Part shown: in pieces, positions 26,365-33,723 of the stretch
How the letters are laid out: each line of letters opens with the position of its first letter
How positions within the stretch are numbered: position 1 is the stretch's first letter
Assembly: GCA_938048455.1 (NCBI GenBank)
Contig: CALIUY010000017.1
Coordinates: 1 to 64,000, forward strand
Direction of reading: 5' to 3'
DNA: 64,000 nt
From: an uncultured Desulfobacterales bacterium
GTDB taxonomy: Bacteria; Desulfobacterota; Desulfobacteria; Desulfobacterales; SpSt-501
Translations under genes and position numbers: made by a program
The notes under the pieces: generated by a model
The model's database searches: none
What the model was told of the DNA's origin: nothing
The model's input: the letters and a program-made list of their open reading frames with translations, nothing else

Positions 26365-26393
26365 TTGGTTCCGCCTACGGGTTGTGGTAGGTT
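26365..26393 (+). promoter_or_regulatory. Candidate promoter directly abutting the DHH/A-adding gene
   Basis: TTGGTT (26365-26370), a 17-nt spacer and TAGGTT (26388-26393) would place the transcript start at about 26400, one base before the ATG at 26401. Both hexamers are imperfect. If real, the mRNA would be leaderless. Confidence 0.3.
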
Positions 26394-26400
26394 GGGAGTC

Positions 26401-29112
26401 ATGGTCGATTCCATCGCGCCGCAGGGCGAGCCGGGGGACTTGACCCTGATCGCCACCCACATCAACGCCGATTTCGACGCCCTCGCCTCGCTGCTCGCCG
26501 CCCGCAAGATCTACCCCGAGGGCAAGGTCGTCTTTCCCGGATCGCAAGAAAAGAACCTGCGCACCTTCTTTGTGAGCTCGTTGCTTTACCTGTTTCATAT
26601 CGTGGAACTCTCCGAGGTGGATCTCGACCGCGTCCGGCGCCTGATCCTGGTGGACACCCGGCAGCCGGGAAGGATCGGGAAACTCGCCGCCCTCGCCTCC
26701 CGCCCCGGGATCGAAATCCACATTTACGACCACCATCCCGAGGCCGAGGGCGACCTCCGCGGCGCCGTGGAGGTCTGCGAGCCGGTCGGCGCGACGGTGA
26801 CTCTTCTCGCCGAGATCCTGCGCGAACGCGGGCTGCGCCTGACGGCCGAGGAGGCGACGATTCTCTGCCTGGGACTTTACGAGGACACCGGTTCCTTCAC
26901 CTACCCCTCGACGACCCCCCGCGACCTCGCCGCCGCCTCCTGGCTGCTCTCCTGCGGGGCCGCGCTGAACGTCGTCTCCGACCTGATCGCCCGCGAGCTG
27001 AATCCCGAGCAGGTGGCCATCCTGAACGACATGATCCAGTCCGCCCGCCGCCAGCACATCAACGGCATCGAAGTCGTGGTTACCGGCATCCAGCGCGAGA
27101 CCTACCTCCCGGATTTCGCCTTCCTCGTGCAGAAGATGGCGCGCATGGAAAACCTCGAGGTCTTCTTCGCGCTCGCCCTCATGGAATCGAAGATCCACAT
27201 CGTGGGCCGCAGCCGCCGCGAGGACGTCGACGTCGGGGCGATCCTCGGCACCTTGGGGGGCGGCGGCCACCCCTACGCCGCGGCGGCGACCCTCAAGGGG
27301 TTGACGCTCCAGCAGGCGGAGGCGCTGCTGTTGGAGCGGCTGCACCAGACCCTGCAGAACCGGCGTCTGGCCGCCTCGCTCATGTCCTCGCCGCCGATCA
27401 GCGTGGACGCCGCCGTCTCCTGCGAGGAGGCCAACGGCATCCTCACCCGCTACAACGTGAACGCCCTGCTCGTGACCGAGACTCCGCCGGGCGGCAAGCC
27501 TGCGTTGCGGGGGTACATCACCCGCCAGGTGGTCGAAAAAGCTCTCTTTCACGGCTTGGGCCGGGTGCCGGTCGGTGAGTACATGACCTCGGAGGTCGCG
27601 GTCGTGGGGCCCGAGGCCGACCTCCGGGAGATTCAGAAGAAGATCATCGAGCACAAGCAGCGCATCCTGCCGGTGGTGGACGGCGCGGGAAGCATCCTCG
27701 GGGTCATCACGCGCACGGATCTTTTGAACGTGCTGGTCGGCCGCGAGCCCCTGGAAGGGACGACGAGCCGGGATCCGCTGCGCGAGGGGGTGCCGCCGCG
27801 CACCCGCAACCTCGCCCCGCTGCTCGCCGAGCGTCTCCCCCCGCGCCTGCTCTCCGTGCTGCGCGAAATCGGGGCGGTCGCCGCGGAACTCGGCCTTTCC
27901 GCCTATGTCGTCGGCGGCTTCGTGCGCGATCTCTTGCTGCAGCGGCGGGACGAGGACATCGACATCGTGATCGAGGGCGACGGCATCGCTTTTGCCCGCC
28001 GCTTCGCACGGCAGGCGGGCGCCCGGCTCCACACCCACGAGCGCTTCGGCACCGCCGTGATCGCCTTCCCCGACGGCCTGAAAATCGACGTCGCCTCCGC
28101 CCGGCTCGAGTACTACCGTTTCCCGGCCGCGCTGCCTACGGTGGAGATGAGCTCGATCAAGCTCGACCTCTACCGGCGGGATTTCACGATCAACACGCTC
28201 GCCTTGCAGTTGAACCCCGGGCGCTTCGGCACGCTGATCGACTTCTTCAACGCCCAGAAGGACATCAAGGAAAAGACGATCCGCGTCTTGCACAACCTGA
28301 GCCTGGTCGAGGACCCGACCCGCGCCTTCCGCGCCATCCGTTTCGAGCAGCGCTTCGGCTTCACGATCGGCCGGCTCACGGCAGGGTTGATTCAGAACGC
28401 GGTCAAGATGGACTTTTTCCGCAACCTCTCGGGACGCCGCATTTTCCAGGAGCTCCGGCTCCTCCTCGAAGAGGAGAACCCCGTCGCGGCCCTGCAGCGC
28501 CTGAGCGATTTCCAGCTCCTCGCCGTGCTCCATCCGCAGATCGTCTTCGACAAGGGGCTCGGGCAGCTGCTGCACGCCGTGCGCCAGGTCGTGAGCTGGT
28601 ACGATTTGCTTTTTCTGGGCGACTTCTATATGAAGTGGGCCGTTTACTTTCTGGCCCTGATCGACCGCCTGGACCCGGCACAGGCGGCGGCGCTCTGCCG
28701 GCGCTTGGAGCTTCCGCCGCGGCTCGAGAGCCTCTTCACCGAAGGCCGCACCGCCAGCCGGCGCTGCCTGCAGGAACTGGCACGCCGCCTGCCGCTCGAA
28801 AACAGCGCGGTCTACCGCTTGCTTCGCGGCTTTCAGACCGAGCTCGTCCTTTTCCTGATGGCGGCCGCGGGGCCGGAGCGGGTGAAAAAGGCGATCTCGC
28901 TCTATTTCACCCAGCTCCGCCGGACGGCGACCTCCGTGAACGGCGAGGATCTGAAACGGCTGGGGGTGCCGCCCGGCCCCCTTTATCGGCGGATCCTCGA
29001 TCAGGTCCTGGACGCCCGGTTGAACGGCCGGGTCGAAACCCGCGAAGACGAGCTTGCGTTCGTCCGCGATCTTCTGCGGCCCCACGCCCCCGAGCACGAT
29101 CCGGGCCCGTAA
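26401..29112 (+). CDS. DHH-DHHA1-CBS-CBS-poly(A) polymerase fusion (A-adding tRNA nucleotidyltransferase)
   Basis: A 903-residue multidomain protein. The N-terminal third is a DHH phosphoesterase (ATHINADFDALASLL, YDHHPEAEG, GLYEDTGSFTY) with DHHA1 (LGGGGHPYAAAATL). Two CBS domains follow, with GVITRTDLLNVLVG closing the second. The rest is a class II nucleotidyltransferase (VVGGFVRDLLLQRRDEDIDIV and YRRDFTINTLAL). Enzymes of this architecture in Geobacter and Aquifex add the terminal A to tRNA, a separate enzyme adding CC. The DHH part could degrade short RNAs or dinucleotides. GGGAG lies 5-9 nt before the ATG; trpS follows. Confidence 0.93.
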   Translation: MVDSIAPQGEPGDLTLIATHINADFDALASLLAARKIYPEGKVVFPGSQEKNLRTFFVSSLLYLFHIVELSEVDLDRVRRLILVDTRQPGRIGKLAALASRPGIEIHIYDHHPEAEGDLRGAVEVCEPVGATVTLLAEILRERGLRLTAEEATILCLGLYEDTGSFTYPSTTPRDLAAASWLLSCGAALNVVSDLIARELNPEQVAILNDMIQSARRQHINGIEVVVTGIQRETYLPDFAFLVQKMARMENLEVFFALALMESKIHIVGRSRREDVDVGAILGTLGGGGHPYAAAATLKGLTLQQAEALLLERLHQTLQNRRLAASLMSSPPISVDAAVSCEEANGILTRYNVNALLVTETPPGGKPALRGYITRQVVEKALFHGLGRVPVGEYMTSEVAVVGPEADLREIQKKIIEHKQRILPVVDGAGSILGVITRTDLLNVLVGREPLEGTTSRDPLREGVPPRTRNLAPLLAERLPPRLLSVLREIGAVAAELGLSAYVVGGFVRDLLLQRRDEDIDIVIEGDGIAFARRFARQAGARLHTHERFGTAVIAFPDGLKIDVASARLEYYRFPAALPTVEMSSIKLDLYRRDFTINTLALQLNPGRFGTLIDFFNAQKDIKEKTIRVLHNLSLVEDPTRAFRAIRFEQRFGFTIGRLTAGLIQNAVKMDFFRNLSGRRIFQELRLLLEEENPVAALQRLSDFQLLAVLHPQIVFDKGLGQLLHAVRQVVSWYDLLFLGDFYMKWAVYFLALIDRLDPAQAAALCRRLELPPRLESLFTEGRTASRRCLQELARRLPLENSAVYRLLRGFQTELVLFLMAAAGPERVKKAISLYFTQLRRTATSVNGEDLKRLGVPPGPLYRRILDQVLDARLNGRVETREDELAFVRDLLRPHAPEHDPGP

Positions 29113-30157: not shown

Positions 30158-30912
30158 GTGCGGAGATCCCCGGCGGCGGTCCGTCCGGCCGAGGGCCGGA
30201 TGCCCCCTACCGTGTGCGGCTGACCGACGTCTTCGAAGGTCCGATGGACCTTCTCGTCCACCTGATCAAGAAAAACGAGATCGCCGTCACCGACATCCCG
30301 ATCGCGCTGATCACCGAGCAGTACCTCGCGTATCTGGAATTTCTGGATGCGATGAACGTGGATTACGCGGGGGAGTTCGTCGTCCTGGCCTCGACCCTGC
30401 TGCAGATCAAGTCCCGCATGCTGCTTCCGGTCCATGCCGACGAGGGCGCAGAAGAAGAGGACCCGCGGCAGGAGATCGTGCGGCCGCTCGTCGAGTACCT
30501 GAGGCTGAAATCCGCGGCCGAGCGGCTTGCCGAGCGCCCGCTTCTCGGGGAAGACACCTTCACGCGCCCCGCCAAATCCGGGGCGGACGCGGCGGCGGAG
30601 GCGGAACCGGAAATCGTCAAGATCGGCCTTTTCGAGCTGATCGACGCCTTCCAGCGGATCCTCGCGGGACTGCCCGAGGACCGGCGGCTGGAATTCACGG
30701 CCGACACGCTCTCGGTTAAAGACCGCATGACGCAAATCGCCGACGCTCTCGAGGAACGCGGCTCCCTCACCTTCGAGGAGCTCTTTCCGGCACAGCCGAC
30801 CCGGGCCGACATCGTCGTCACTTTCCTGGCTCTTCTGGAAATGGTGAAACTCGGCCTGATCCGGCTCGCCCAGCACGTCCCCTCGGGGATCATCCGGATC
30901 TTCTACCTCTGA
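30154..30912 (+). CDS. scpA: Segregation and condensation protein A
   Basis: The kleisin subunit of the Smc-ScpAB condensin, bridging the SMC heads. The 252-residue protein has the N-terminal FEGPMDLLVHLIKKNEIAVTDIPI motif and a central acidic linker (AEEEDPRQE). The C-terminal winged helix holds VTFLALLEMVKLGLIRL. It overlaps trpS by 4 nt and scpB by 1 nt, forming a coupled pair. No smc gene is in the window. Confidence 0.96.
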   Translation: MSAEIPGGGPSGRGPDAPYRVRLTDVFEGPMDLLVHLIKKNEIAVTDIPIALITEQYLAYLEFLDAMNVDYAGEFVVLASTLLQIKSRMLLPVHADEGAEEEDPRQEIVRPLVEYLRLKSAAERLAERPLLGEDTFTRPAKSGADAAAEAEPEIVKIGLFELIDAFQRILAGLPEDRRLEFTADTLSVKDRMTQIADALEERGSLTFEELFPAQPTRADIVVTFLALLEMVKLGLIRLAQHVPSGIIRIFYL

Positions 30913-31604
30913 TGGACGACCTGAAGAACATCATCGAGGCTTTGCTCTTCGTCGCCGACGAACCGCTCTCCGTCGAACGCCTGCGCCAGGCGGTCGGGCC
31001 CGTGGAGGGGGCCGAAATCCATGCCGCCCTGTCCCAGCTGCAGGCCGAAATGGAGGAGCGCCGCGGCGGCTTCGCCCTGGTCGAAGTGGCCGGGGGCTTC
31101 CAATTCCGCACCCGGCCCGAGTACGGCCCCTGGGTGAAACGGCTGCTCGATCCGCGGCCCGTGCGGTTGAGCAAGGCCGCGCTCGAAACGCTCGCGATCA
31201 TCGCCTACAAGCAGCCGATCATCCGCGCCGAAATCGAGCACCTGCGCGGCGTCGATTGCGGCGGAGTGCTGCGGCAGCTGCTCGAACGGAAGCTCATCCG
31301 CGTGCTGGGCCGCAGGGAGATCCCCGGCCGCCCCCTGATCTACGCCACGACGAAGCGATTCCTCGAGGTCTTCGACCTGAAAGACTTGAACGATCTGCCC
31401 ACCCCCCGCGAGATCGAGGAGCTCGGCCGGCCCTCCCTGGAGGAGCGCGGCAACATCGTGATCGAACCCGAAGAAGAAGGCGCCCTCCCGCCGGAGCAAG
31501 CTTCGCCCGTCGGCGAGCCGCCGGCGGCGGGACAGGCTGCGGAACCCGCTGCAGCCTTACCGCCGGCGGAGGAAGCCCCTCCCCGCCCGGCTTCCGAGGG
31601 CTGA
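30912..31604 (+). CDS. scpB: Segregation and condensation protein B
   Basis: Winged-helix partner of ScpA in the condensin complex. The 230-residue protein has two winged-helix domains with signatures IIEALLFVADEPLS and ALETLAIIAYKQPIIRAEIEHLRGVD, then GRPLIYATTKRFLEVFDL. The last 55 residues are an acidic Pro/Ala/Glu-rich tail beyond the usual domain. Start and scpA stop share TGATG. Confidence 0.96.
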   Translation: MDDLKNIIEALLFVADEPLSVERLRQAVGPVEGAEIHAALSQLQAEMEERRGGFALVEVAGGFQFRTRPEYGPWVKRLLDPRPVRLSKAALETLAIIAYKQPIIRAEIEHLRGVDCGGVLRQLLERKLIRVLGRREIPGRPLIYATTKRFLEVFDLKDLNDLPTPREIEELGRPSLEERGNIVIEPEEEGALPPEQASPVGEPPAAGQAAEPAAALPPAEEAPPRPASEG

Positions 31605-31622: not shown

Positions 31623-32387
31623 GTGGGTGCCGCGCGATCCCTGGAGCGTCTTGCCCGCATGCTCGCCTACATGCTCGGCCGCAACCCGTCCGAGTTTGGG
31701 CTCGTCCCCGACGCCCGGGGCTTCGTCCGGCTGCGTGAGCTTCTGCAAGCGCTCCACGAGGAAGAGGGCTTCCGCCACGTGCGTGAAGCCGATCTCCGGG
31801 CAATACCGCTCTGCCACCCCTCGGCCGACATCGAAATCGAAGAAAACCGAATCCGCTGCCGCAGCCTGGCCTCTTCCCCCGCCGAGGAACACCTTCCGGC
31901 CGAGCCGCCGCGGCTTCTCTATGCCGCGATCCGCCGCCGGGCCTGGCCCTTTGTGCACCAAAAGGGCCTCGCCCCTGAGCGGCAGGCGCCCGCGATCCTT
32001 TGCATTGATCGCGATTTCGCCCTGCGTCTCGGCCGCCGGATCGATCCCGAACCGGTGATTCTGAGCGTGGATGTGCGCCAGGCGGCCGCCGCCGGCGTCC
32101 GCTTCCTGCCTTTGGGGGAGGGGCTCTTTCAAGCCGCCGCCGTGCCCCCCTCCTGTCTGAGCGGCCCTGCTCTGCCGGAAAGTCCGCCTTCGCCGACCGG
32201 GCGCCAGGGACACCCCCCTGCCTCCACGCGCATCCTGCCCGGAGGCTACCTTCCGGACCCGGCCCGGGTTTTCGCCGGCGAGGCGCCCCGGAATCGAAGC
32301 GGGGGCAAGAGGGCGGGAAAACGCCCCCCGCACGGCCGCTGGAAGCGCGAAAAGCCGCCTTGGAAGGAATCGGCGGAAAAAATTTGA
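31623..32387 (+). CDS. Tpt1/KptA-fold protein with degenerate active site
   Basis: A 254-residue protein whose first 180 residues follow the RNA 2'-phosphotransferase family step by step: LARMLAYMLGRNPSEFGLVPDARGF at the start, later PPRLLYAA and PVILSVDVRQAAAAGVRFLPLGEGLF. Real Tpt1/KptA enzymes need an Arg-His pair in the LRH motif. Here those positions read LGR (residues 18-20). The QGHS motif and the HVHLS strand are also replaced. Arg residues at IRCR and GRRIDP may be kept. The C-terminal 70 residues are basic and Pro-rich. Activity is doubtful. The stop codon lies inside the -35 of the tRNA-Lys promoter. Confidence 0.72.
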   Translation: MGAARSLERLARMLAYMLGRNPSEFGLVPDARGFVRLRELLQALHEEEGFRHVREADLRAIPLCHPSADIEIEENRIRCRSLASSPAEEHLPAEPPRLLYAAIRRRAWPFVHQKGLAPERQAPAILCIDRDFALRLGRRIDPEPVILSVDVRQAAAAGVRFLPLGEGLFQAAAVPPSCLSGPALPESPPSPTGRQGHPPASTRILPGGYLPDPARVFAGEAPRNRSGGKRAGKRPPHGRWKREKPPWKESAEKI

Positions 32388-32412
32388 CAGGGTTTTTCGT
32401 CTCTGGTATGAG
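32384..32412 (+). promoter_or_regulatory. Sigma70 promoter of tRNA-Lys
   Basis: A consensus TTGACA (32384-32389), a 17-nt spacer and TATGAG (32407-32412) predict a start near 32419, 25 nt before the tRNA. The TGA stop of the preceding gene is part of the -35 hexamer. Confidence 0.8.
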
Positions 32413-32443: not shown

Positions 32444-32520
32444 GGGCTGCTAGCTCAACTAGGCAGAGCAAATGACTCTTAATCATTAGGTTGCTGGTTC
32501 GATTCCAGCGCAGCCCACCA
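32444..32520 (+). tRNA. tRNA-Lys (anticodon CTT)
   Basis: A complete plus-strand cloverleaf: acceptor GGGCTGC/GCAGCCC, anticodon stem AATGA/TCATT with loop CTCTTAA, T arm CTGG TTCGATTCCAG, and encoded CCA. The CTT anticodon reads AAG lysine. It has its own strong promoter. Confidence 0.97.
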
Positions 32521-33462: not shown

Positions 33463-33723
33463 ATGGCTTCGCCCGGTGAGACTCAAACTTGCGGGGAAAG
33501 CCCGATGGAAGGATCCGAGGAGAAGAAGCTGGAAAAGGAAGAGCCCGTGGACCCCCCGCAGACGCCGGATCCGCAGGCGTCCGGCCCCTCGAGTCGGGTC
33601 AAGTTCGAAATCTTCGGCGAGGAGATGATCGAAAAGCGGGTCAAGGCGAGCGGCAACAGCGGCCGGGTCTATCTTCCGCCCGACTGGGTCGGCCACCGGG
33701 TGAAAATCATCCGCATCGACTGA
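33463..33723 (+). CDS. DUF2080 family (transposon-encoded type) protein
   Basis: An 86-residue protein. Its last 40 residues (EKRVKASGNSGRVYLPPDWVG, then HRVKIIRID) match the DUF2080 pattern, described as transposon-encoded in archaea and seen in some Desulfobacterota. The pattern resembles a small AbrB-like DNA-binding hairpin. The first 45 residues are an acidic linker. An ATG at 33505 behind GGGGAAAG is an alternative start. No transposase is near. Its 3' end is part of a 24-bp tandem duplication. Confidence 0.7.
   Translation: MASPGETQTCGESPMEGSEEKKLEKEEPVDPPQTPDPQASGPSSRVKFEIFGEEMIEKRVKASGNSGRVYLPPDWVGHRVKIIRID

Follow-up and report, generated by a model that had tools for sequence, protein, structure and literature searches.

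The active site of the RNA 2'-phosphotransferase Tpt1/KptA is described for CthTpt1 (6E3A), and the residue numbering of that protein is used here for comparisons. According to the active-site sections of PMC6333775, R18, H19, R68 and R121 of CthTpt1 bind the 2'- and 3'-phosphates and form an essential tetrad, the adenosine ribose of NAD+ is contacted by H101 and T103, and the NAD+ phosphates are caged by R121, R139 and R140. The same sections report that the R16A exchange in RslTpt1 slowed step 1 by 380-fold, and that the H99A/T101A double mutant of RslTpt1 converted 4% of the substrate and was lethal in yeast. The role of Tpt1/KptA in bacteria is presented in these sections as an open question, and E. 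coli is without a yeast-like ligase that would make its substrate (PMC6333775).

Repeated loss of an active site from a protein that is otherwise kept is described for the fungal Ssd1/Dis3L2 pseudonucleases. In the sections of PMC8097288 on these proteins, the active site disappeared on at least four occasions, the non-catalytic regions were kept and a bifunctional ancestor was proposed; for the inactive proteins, RNA binding is described. The family studied here parallels Ssd1/Dis3L2 in its repeated active-site loss, although fold and organisms are unrelated. No description of Tpt1/KptA pseudoenzymes was found in the open-access literature searched, and a putative lineage of such proteins is what is new here.

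The gene and its predicted fold

The window analysed here is a stretch of 64,000 nucleotides from an uncultured Desulfobacterales bacterium. On its forward strand, positions 31623-32387 form an uninterrupted ORF of 254 amino acids, from a GTG start to a TGA stop, and the GTG at 31623 aligns with the ATG starts of relatives. The only Pfam match of the encoded protein was PF01885, with 29.3 bits (cut-off 26) over profile positions 4-166 of 177. The NCBIfam equivalogs for RNA 2'-phosphotransferase were also matched, but the protein remained far below every one of their cut-offs (76.2 bits vs 231 at best). PF01885 was matched by all 77 members of the family alignment A3 (E up to 0.1; two rows with runs of N, L078 and L119, and two near copies of L090, L092 and L116, were dropped beforehand), and the family profile matched CthTpt1 at an E value of 5e-37.

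The mean pLDDT of an AlphaFold model, for which 77 sequences were used, was 84.3. By blocks of ten residues, pLDDT was at least 90 in residues 11-80 and 91-180, 66 in residues 81-90 and low in the tail. When the model was compared with known structures using Foldseek and VIA-align, the top structures were Tpt1/KptA proteins, with E values of ~1e-14 to 1e-12 and Z scores of 15-16.5 for the best 14. With CthTpt1 (6E3A), ApeTpt1 (1WFX) and TkoKptA (9LD4) the protein has the fold over residues 3-183, the Pfam family and the order of landmarks in common. The original prediction, made from the sequence, had stated that the Tpt1/KptA landmarks are in order and had called for a structure prediction, and the Pfam match, the model and the structure matches bear it out. 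Superposition of both lobes together gave an rmsd of 9-10, compared with 2.5-2.9 for single lobes, so that the two lobes are probably set at a different angle in the model of the window protein.

The Tpt1-fold core comprises residues 1-179 (31623-32159) and consists of a La-like winged-helix (RNA) lobe followed by an ART-type (NAD) lobe. Residues 1-88 of the N-terminal lobe superposed on the La motif of human La (1YTY, 2VOP) with a Z score of 8.6 and an rmsd of 2.7-2.9 over 83-85 residues, but at only ~16% identity, and canonical Tpt1 has the same lobe. The Tpt1 lobe is compared with La also in PMC6333775. The core is followed by a tail of 75 amino acids (32160-32384), which is basic (net charge +9) and proline-rich, as predicted originally, and which carries the family motifs GP (P182) and PGG (G207).

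Active-site residues in the window protein and its family

In the alignment, the window equivalents of CthTpt1 R18, H19, R68, R121, H101, T103, R139 and R140 are G19, R20, D69, Q121, A101, I103, R139 and I140, respectively. None of the four residues of the Arg-His-Arg-Arg tetrad is retained: R18-H19 is replaced by G19-R20 (31677-31682), R68, the Arg of the KKR stretch, by D69 (31827-31829), and R121 by Q121. The latter belongs to the segment from Q121 to I125 (31983-31997), which replaces R121 to H125 of the strand RQYVHLS, with I125 at the position of H125. The NAD+ contacts of H101 and T103 are absent, as A101-A102-I103 (31923-31931) replaces H101-G102-T103. The YGHS/QGHS motif reads SLAS (S81-S84, 31863-31874). 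Retained are R78 (31854-31856), the Arg of the IRA motif that corresponds to CthTpt1 R77, and R139 of the phosphate cage (32037-32039). The changes noticed initially (LGR for LRH, the missing QGHS and the APAILC strand) were thus all recovered in the alignment, and the claimed loss of the catalytic Arg-His pair extends to R68 and R121 and hence to the whole tetrad.

An alignment shift that restores the motifs could be ruled out, since the regions of R18-H19, R68 and H101 are aligned in the same way by the profile and by MAFFT. Sliding R120 of the window stretch PERQAPAILC by one residue onto R121 found no support in relatives, and the conclusion holds with or without this slide.

Because the altered residues are known to be essential from published mutants, there is strong reason to expect that the window protein should be unable to remove RNA 2'-phosphates. 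The label "RNA 2'-phosphotransferase" that altered members receive from Pfam is probably wrong. Compared with Tpt1/KptA, the window protein thus differs in the tetrad, in H101/T103 and in the additional basic tail.

The family alignment comprised 146 rows, namely five canonical KptAs, 14 tailed members with intact motifs, two partial and 125 altered members. It was again made without L078 and L119, and some of its rows are redundant (N_L005 is identical to L072; judged by length, L123/L173 and L126/L176 come from the same contigs). Among the 125 altered rows, 76 retain no residue of the tetrad, 43 retain one and six retain two; H101 is retained in 10 rows and T103 in one. The 14 intact-tailed members (e.g., L132, L141, L148 and L151), which are distant members from the phylum scan and the nearest intact relatives, have RH, R68, the YGHS stretch, H101, R121 and H125 all present together with the same long tail; the window protein shares the tail and the family signature with them, but not these residues. 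The comparison of homologues suggested with the original prediction therefore shows that the closest homologues share the changes and that distant tailed members have the standard residues.

This signature (K38, E46, E47, R54, E71, R104, R135, D141 and P182) is the rule in intact-tailed and altered members and not in canonical KptA; the window protein departs from the family at position 38 (R) and at position 60 (A, where most have E). The tail of the Desulfobacterota family has a median length of 72 amino acids and is absent from the five canonical KptAs. With two rows (one intact, one altered) set aside for unresolved residues, a tail net charge of at least +6 was found in 13/13 intact-tailed, 2/2 partial and 123/124 altered members, and in 0/5 canonical ones. 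The pattern used for a PG-type tail motif is less general than the charge (8/13 intact and 80/124 altered). From this distribution it appears that the tail and the family signature are older than the loss of the active site.

A careful tree was calculated from 49 chosen rows of the 146 plus CthTpt1, with the motif columns left out. The altered row F_L159 was nested in an intact clade with support of 100/99, and the altered F_L154, together with the partial F_L155 and F_L156, fell within another intact clade (100/98). The altered rows formed a single group in none of 200 bootstrap trees, and a minimum of five changes of state was required. A quicker tree of 94 rows, in which the columns of the IRA-motif Arg (CthTpt1 R77) were excluded and not used for the state counts, gave the same picture and also five changes. 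Such counts alone do not separate gain from loss; loss is favoured because the outgroup is canonical and a regain of six residues is implausible. The trees thus suggest several losses of catalysis, in proteins that retained the fold, the signature and the tail. The deep placements are unsure, owing to the long branches of F_L188, F_L189, F_L143 and F_L144. Altered rows tend toward longer branches than intact rows in the careful tree, which fits relaxed constraint in part.

The clade of L154, L155 and L156 (from G388, G437 and G500) contains two members with partial sites, one fully altered member and intact sisters. This looks like a stepwise loss of the active site.

Distribution and genomic neighbourhood

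A search with the window protein (E 0.001) gave matches in 47/58 related genomes and in 39 of the 45 more complete ones, and a search with the Pfam model in 45/58. In four genomes (G008, G043, G045 and G052) a second, canonical KptA was found at 174-182 bits, compared with 24-60 bits for the others. In the remaining 43 of the 47 genomes, several of which are incomplete, no canonical KptA was found beside the altered gene, and the protein is therefore unlikely to be a subunit or partner of an active KptA. The family profile matched in 156/241 genomes, those listed all being of the same order, and in 103/297 genomes across the phylum; of the genomes without a match, all but 65 and 174, respectively, were listed. 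The matches of these wide draws include at least one canonical KptA, G441 (L189), and perhaps a few more with low scores. The altered protein is kept by many sulfate reducers and related bacteria, but it is not essential everywhere, since a number of nearly complete genomes from the order are without the gene. The altered gene is present twice (L078 and L086) on one Desulfobacterales chromosome, CP070746.1.

The ORF is open in most loci listed among relatives. Nei-Gojobori dN/dS was 0.10-0.43 across 14 pairs whose members are altered or partial, with most values at 0.15-0.31; one further pair gave no value, as both rows are probably one gene. Between the window protein and its nearest relative dN/dS was 0.296 (core 0.22, tail 0.53) at a dS of 0.74. 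Six intact-tailed pairs gave 0.07-0.24 where dS was calculable.

The gene lies on the same strand between scpB (30912-31604), which ends 18 nt upstream and is itself preceded by scpA, and tRNA-Lys(CTT) (32444-32520), as the original prediction had placed it. scpB is also upstream in the nearest relative (G003/L002); the remaining loci examined as far as L130, many with a flank of only 1.5 kb, gave no scpB. In the window scpB takes the upstream place while the tRNA remains. The tRNA was linked to the gene in most loci of the order: it was found on the same strand within 600 nt downstream in 29/46 loci (45 with room) and in 50/80 loci (77 with room), two sets that share genomes, the second being mostly from Desulfobacterales or unclassified deltaproteobacteria. 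The linkage was also observed at 12 loci lacking any member of the hemL cluster, and at none of the 60 loci of the phylum scan. It is real and old in the order, and it is poor evidence for a shared function.

A likely promoter of the tRNA (32384-32412, forward strand) consists of TTGACA at 32384-32389, a spacer of 17 nt and TATGAG at 32407-32412, although a stricter promoter scan did not list it. In the window, L003 and L023, this TTGACA box and the gene's stop codon overlap. An exact TTGACA was present 43-70 nt upstream of the tRNA in 75/79 cases, compared with 2/79 after shuffling (one shuffle each), whereas a first promoter score discriminated weakly, with a mean of 9.4 of 12 vs 7.9 in shuffles.

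Other neighbours recur in subsets of the 80 loci. By ORF clustering, a divergent hemL was upstream in 53/80 and mpl in 32/80, and an rpsF cluster was located beyond the tRNA in 11/80. The name hemL is based on the sequence and on a match to the Pfam class-III aminotransferases, the name rpsF on a Pfam match; mpl, rplI, dnaB and hflX were named by reading the sequences, without a database match. Neighbouring ORFs were chosen by a longest-ORF rule, which took the wrong strand at some loci, including the window. No neighbour was constant across the phylum loci, which gave no conserved functional partner there, and a partner from the neighbourhood was rejected.

Two further genes of the window were noted. 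Positions 26365-29112 encode a 915-aa protein with DHH, DHHA1, CBS and poly(A) polymerase head domains, which we take to be of the tRNA nucleotidyltransferase type. A small protein that matches DUF2080 (putative transposon-encoded protein) is encoded at 33463-33723, just before a GNAT acetyltransferase gene.

Possible roles of a putatively non-catalytic Tpt1/KptA

On balance we favour the explanation that this Tpt1/KptA protein is a pseudoenzyme maintained for a function other than catalysis, most likely the binding of RNA by its La-like lobe and its tail. The two-lobed Tpt1 fold would have been kept while the residues for the 2'-phosphate, the 3'-phosphate and NAD+ went. The ancestor would have been a tailed Desulfobacterota KptA that combined phosphotransferase activity with a second, non-catalytic function on the surface of the fold and the tail. 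This second function would be older than the loss, because the signature and the tail are common to intact-tailed and altered members. Selection would maintain it, whereas catalysis would have been discarded repeatedly. In the altered proteins, the La-like winged-helix lobe and the basic tail may clamp a structured RNA (tRNA or rRNA), which would be left unmodified, in an RNA-binding or chaperone role.

The Tpt1/KptA fold without its catalytic residues, as stated in the original prediction, agrees with these results. Among the three fates that it considered, an RNA-binding protein is still the preferred one; a decaying gene and a different ADP-ribosyltransferase fare poorly, for reasons given below.

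The rival that survives best is that the protein became a reader instead of a writer, with an RNA end carrying ADP-ribose or phosphate, or a ligand derived from NAD, being bound but not turned over. Both lobes are kept, and R139 is retained in 119/125 altered rows, the R77 equivalent in 117/125 and a basic residue (K/R) at position 11 in 120/125, which makes a weak or different ligand possible. However, H101 and T103 as well as R18, H19, R68 and R121 are gone in most altered rows and have no conserved replacement, and a reader of this kind is considered unlikely. Rather unlikely, too, is a protein-protein adaptor, for instance on the ribosome, in which the motifs of the tail dock without direct contact to RNA. 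It would explain why conservation in the tail goes beyond charge and includes motifs (P182 of GPP, G207 of PGSF), and why a subset of relatives is found near the gene for ribosomal protein S6, but this ribosomal neighbourhood is restricted to the minority of loci given above and lies beyond the tRNA.

That the enzyme was re-purposed, with new residues that support a different ADP-ribosyltransferase activity or other chemistry, is improbable. The columns of the NAD lobe that are at least 80% conserved among altered rows are P96, L99, R104, G115, L126, A133, R135, G137, R139, D141, P144, G158, F161, G165 and P175, and R104, R135 and D141 could be taken as candidates for new catalytic residues. 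They are, however, also present in most intact-tailed members and are thus not replacements. In other classes of ADP-ribosyltransferases the NAD lobe typically has a catalytic Glu or His that is conserved; among the 125 altered rows, this lobe has no column of His, Ser, Thr, Tyr or Glu with at least 80% conservation, so that no such Glu or His was found, and D141 is the only acidic residue that reaches this level.

It is very improbable that the protein is the partner of the adjacent tRNA-Lys(CTT) and acts on that tRNA. The same-strand linkage, which also occurs where no hemL cluster member is present, speaks for it, but it disappears in the phylum scan; moreover, nearly all of these tRNAs have their own TTGACA, and the overlap with the stop codon at three loci could hold the pair together mechanically. 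Finally, a decaying gene without function, for which the longer branches of altered rows and the relatives without the gene could be cited, is hardly credible given the mostly open ORFs, the purifying selection that the dN/dS values show and the conservation of signature and tail across the phylum.

With RNA binding by a non-catalytic Tpt1/KptA as the preferred reading, the result may tentatively be carried one step further. Tailed Desulfobacterota Tpt1 might have been bifunctional; its RNA-binding or chaperone function, residing in the La-like lobe and the basic tail, would be the one that mattered, so that the active site decayed independently several times and left much of the phylum with a pseudoenzyme. 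Since the protein appears to be kept while its chemistry is repeatedly discarded, part of the role of bacterial Tpt1 need not be catalytic, and the intact, partial and altered members constitute a natural separation-of-function set. If true, a bifunctional tailed Tpt1 would be one answer to the question why Tpt1 persists at all in bacteria that have no yeast-type tRNA ligation.
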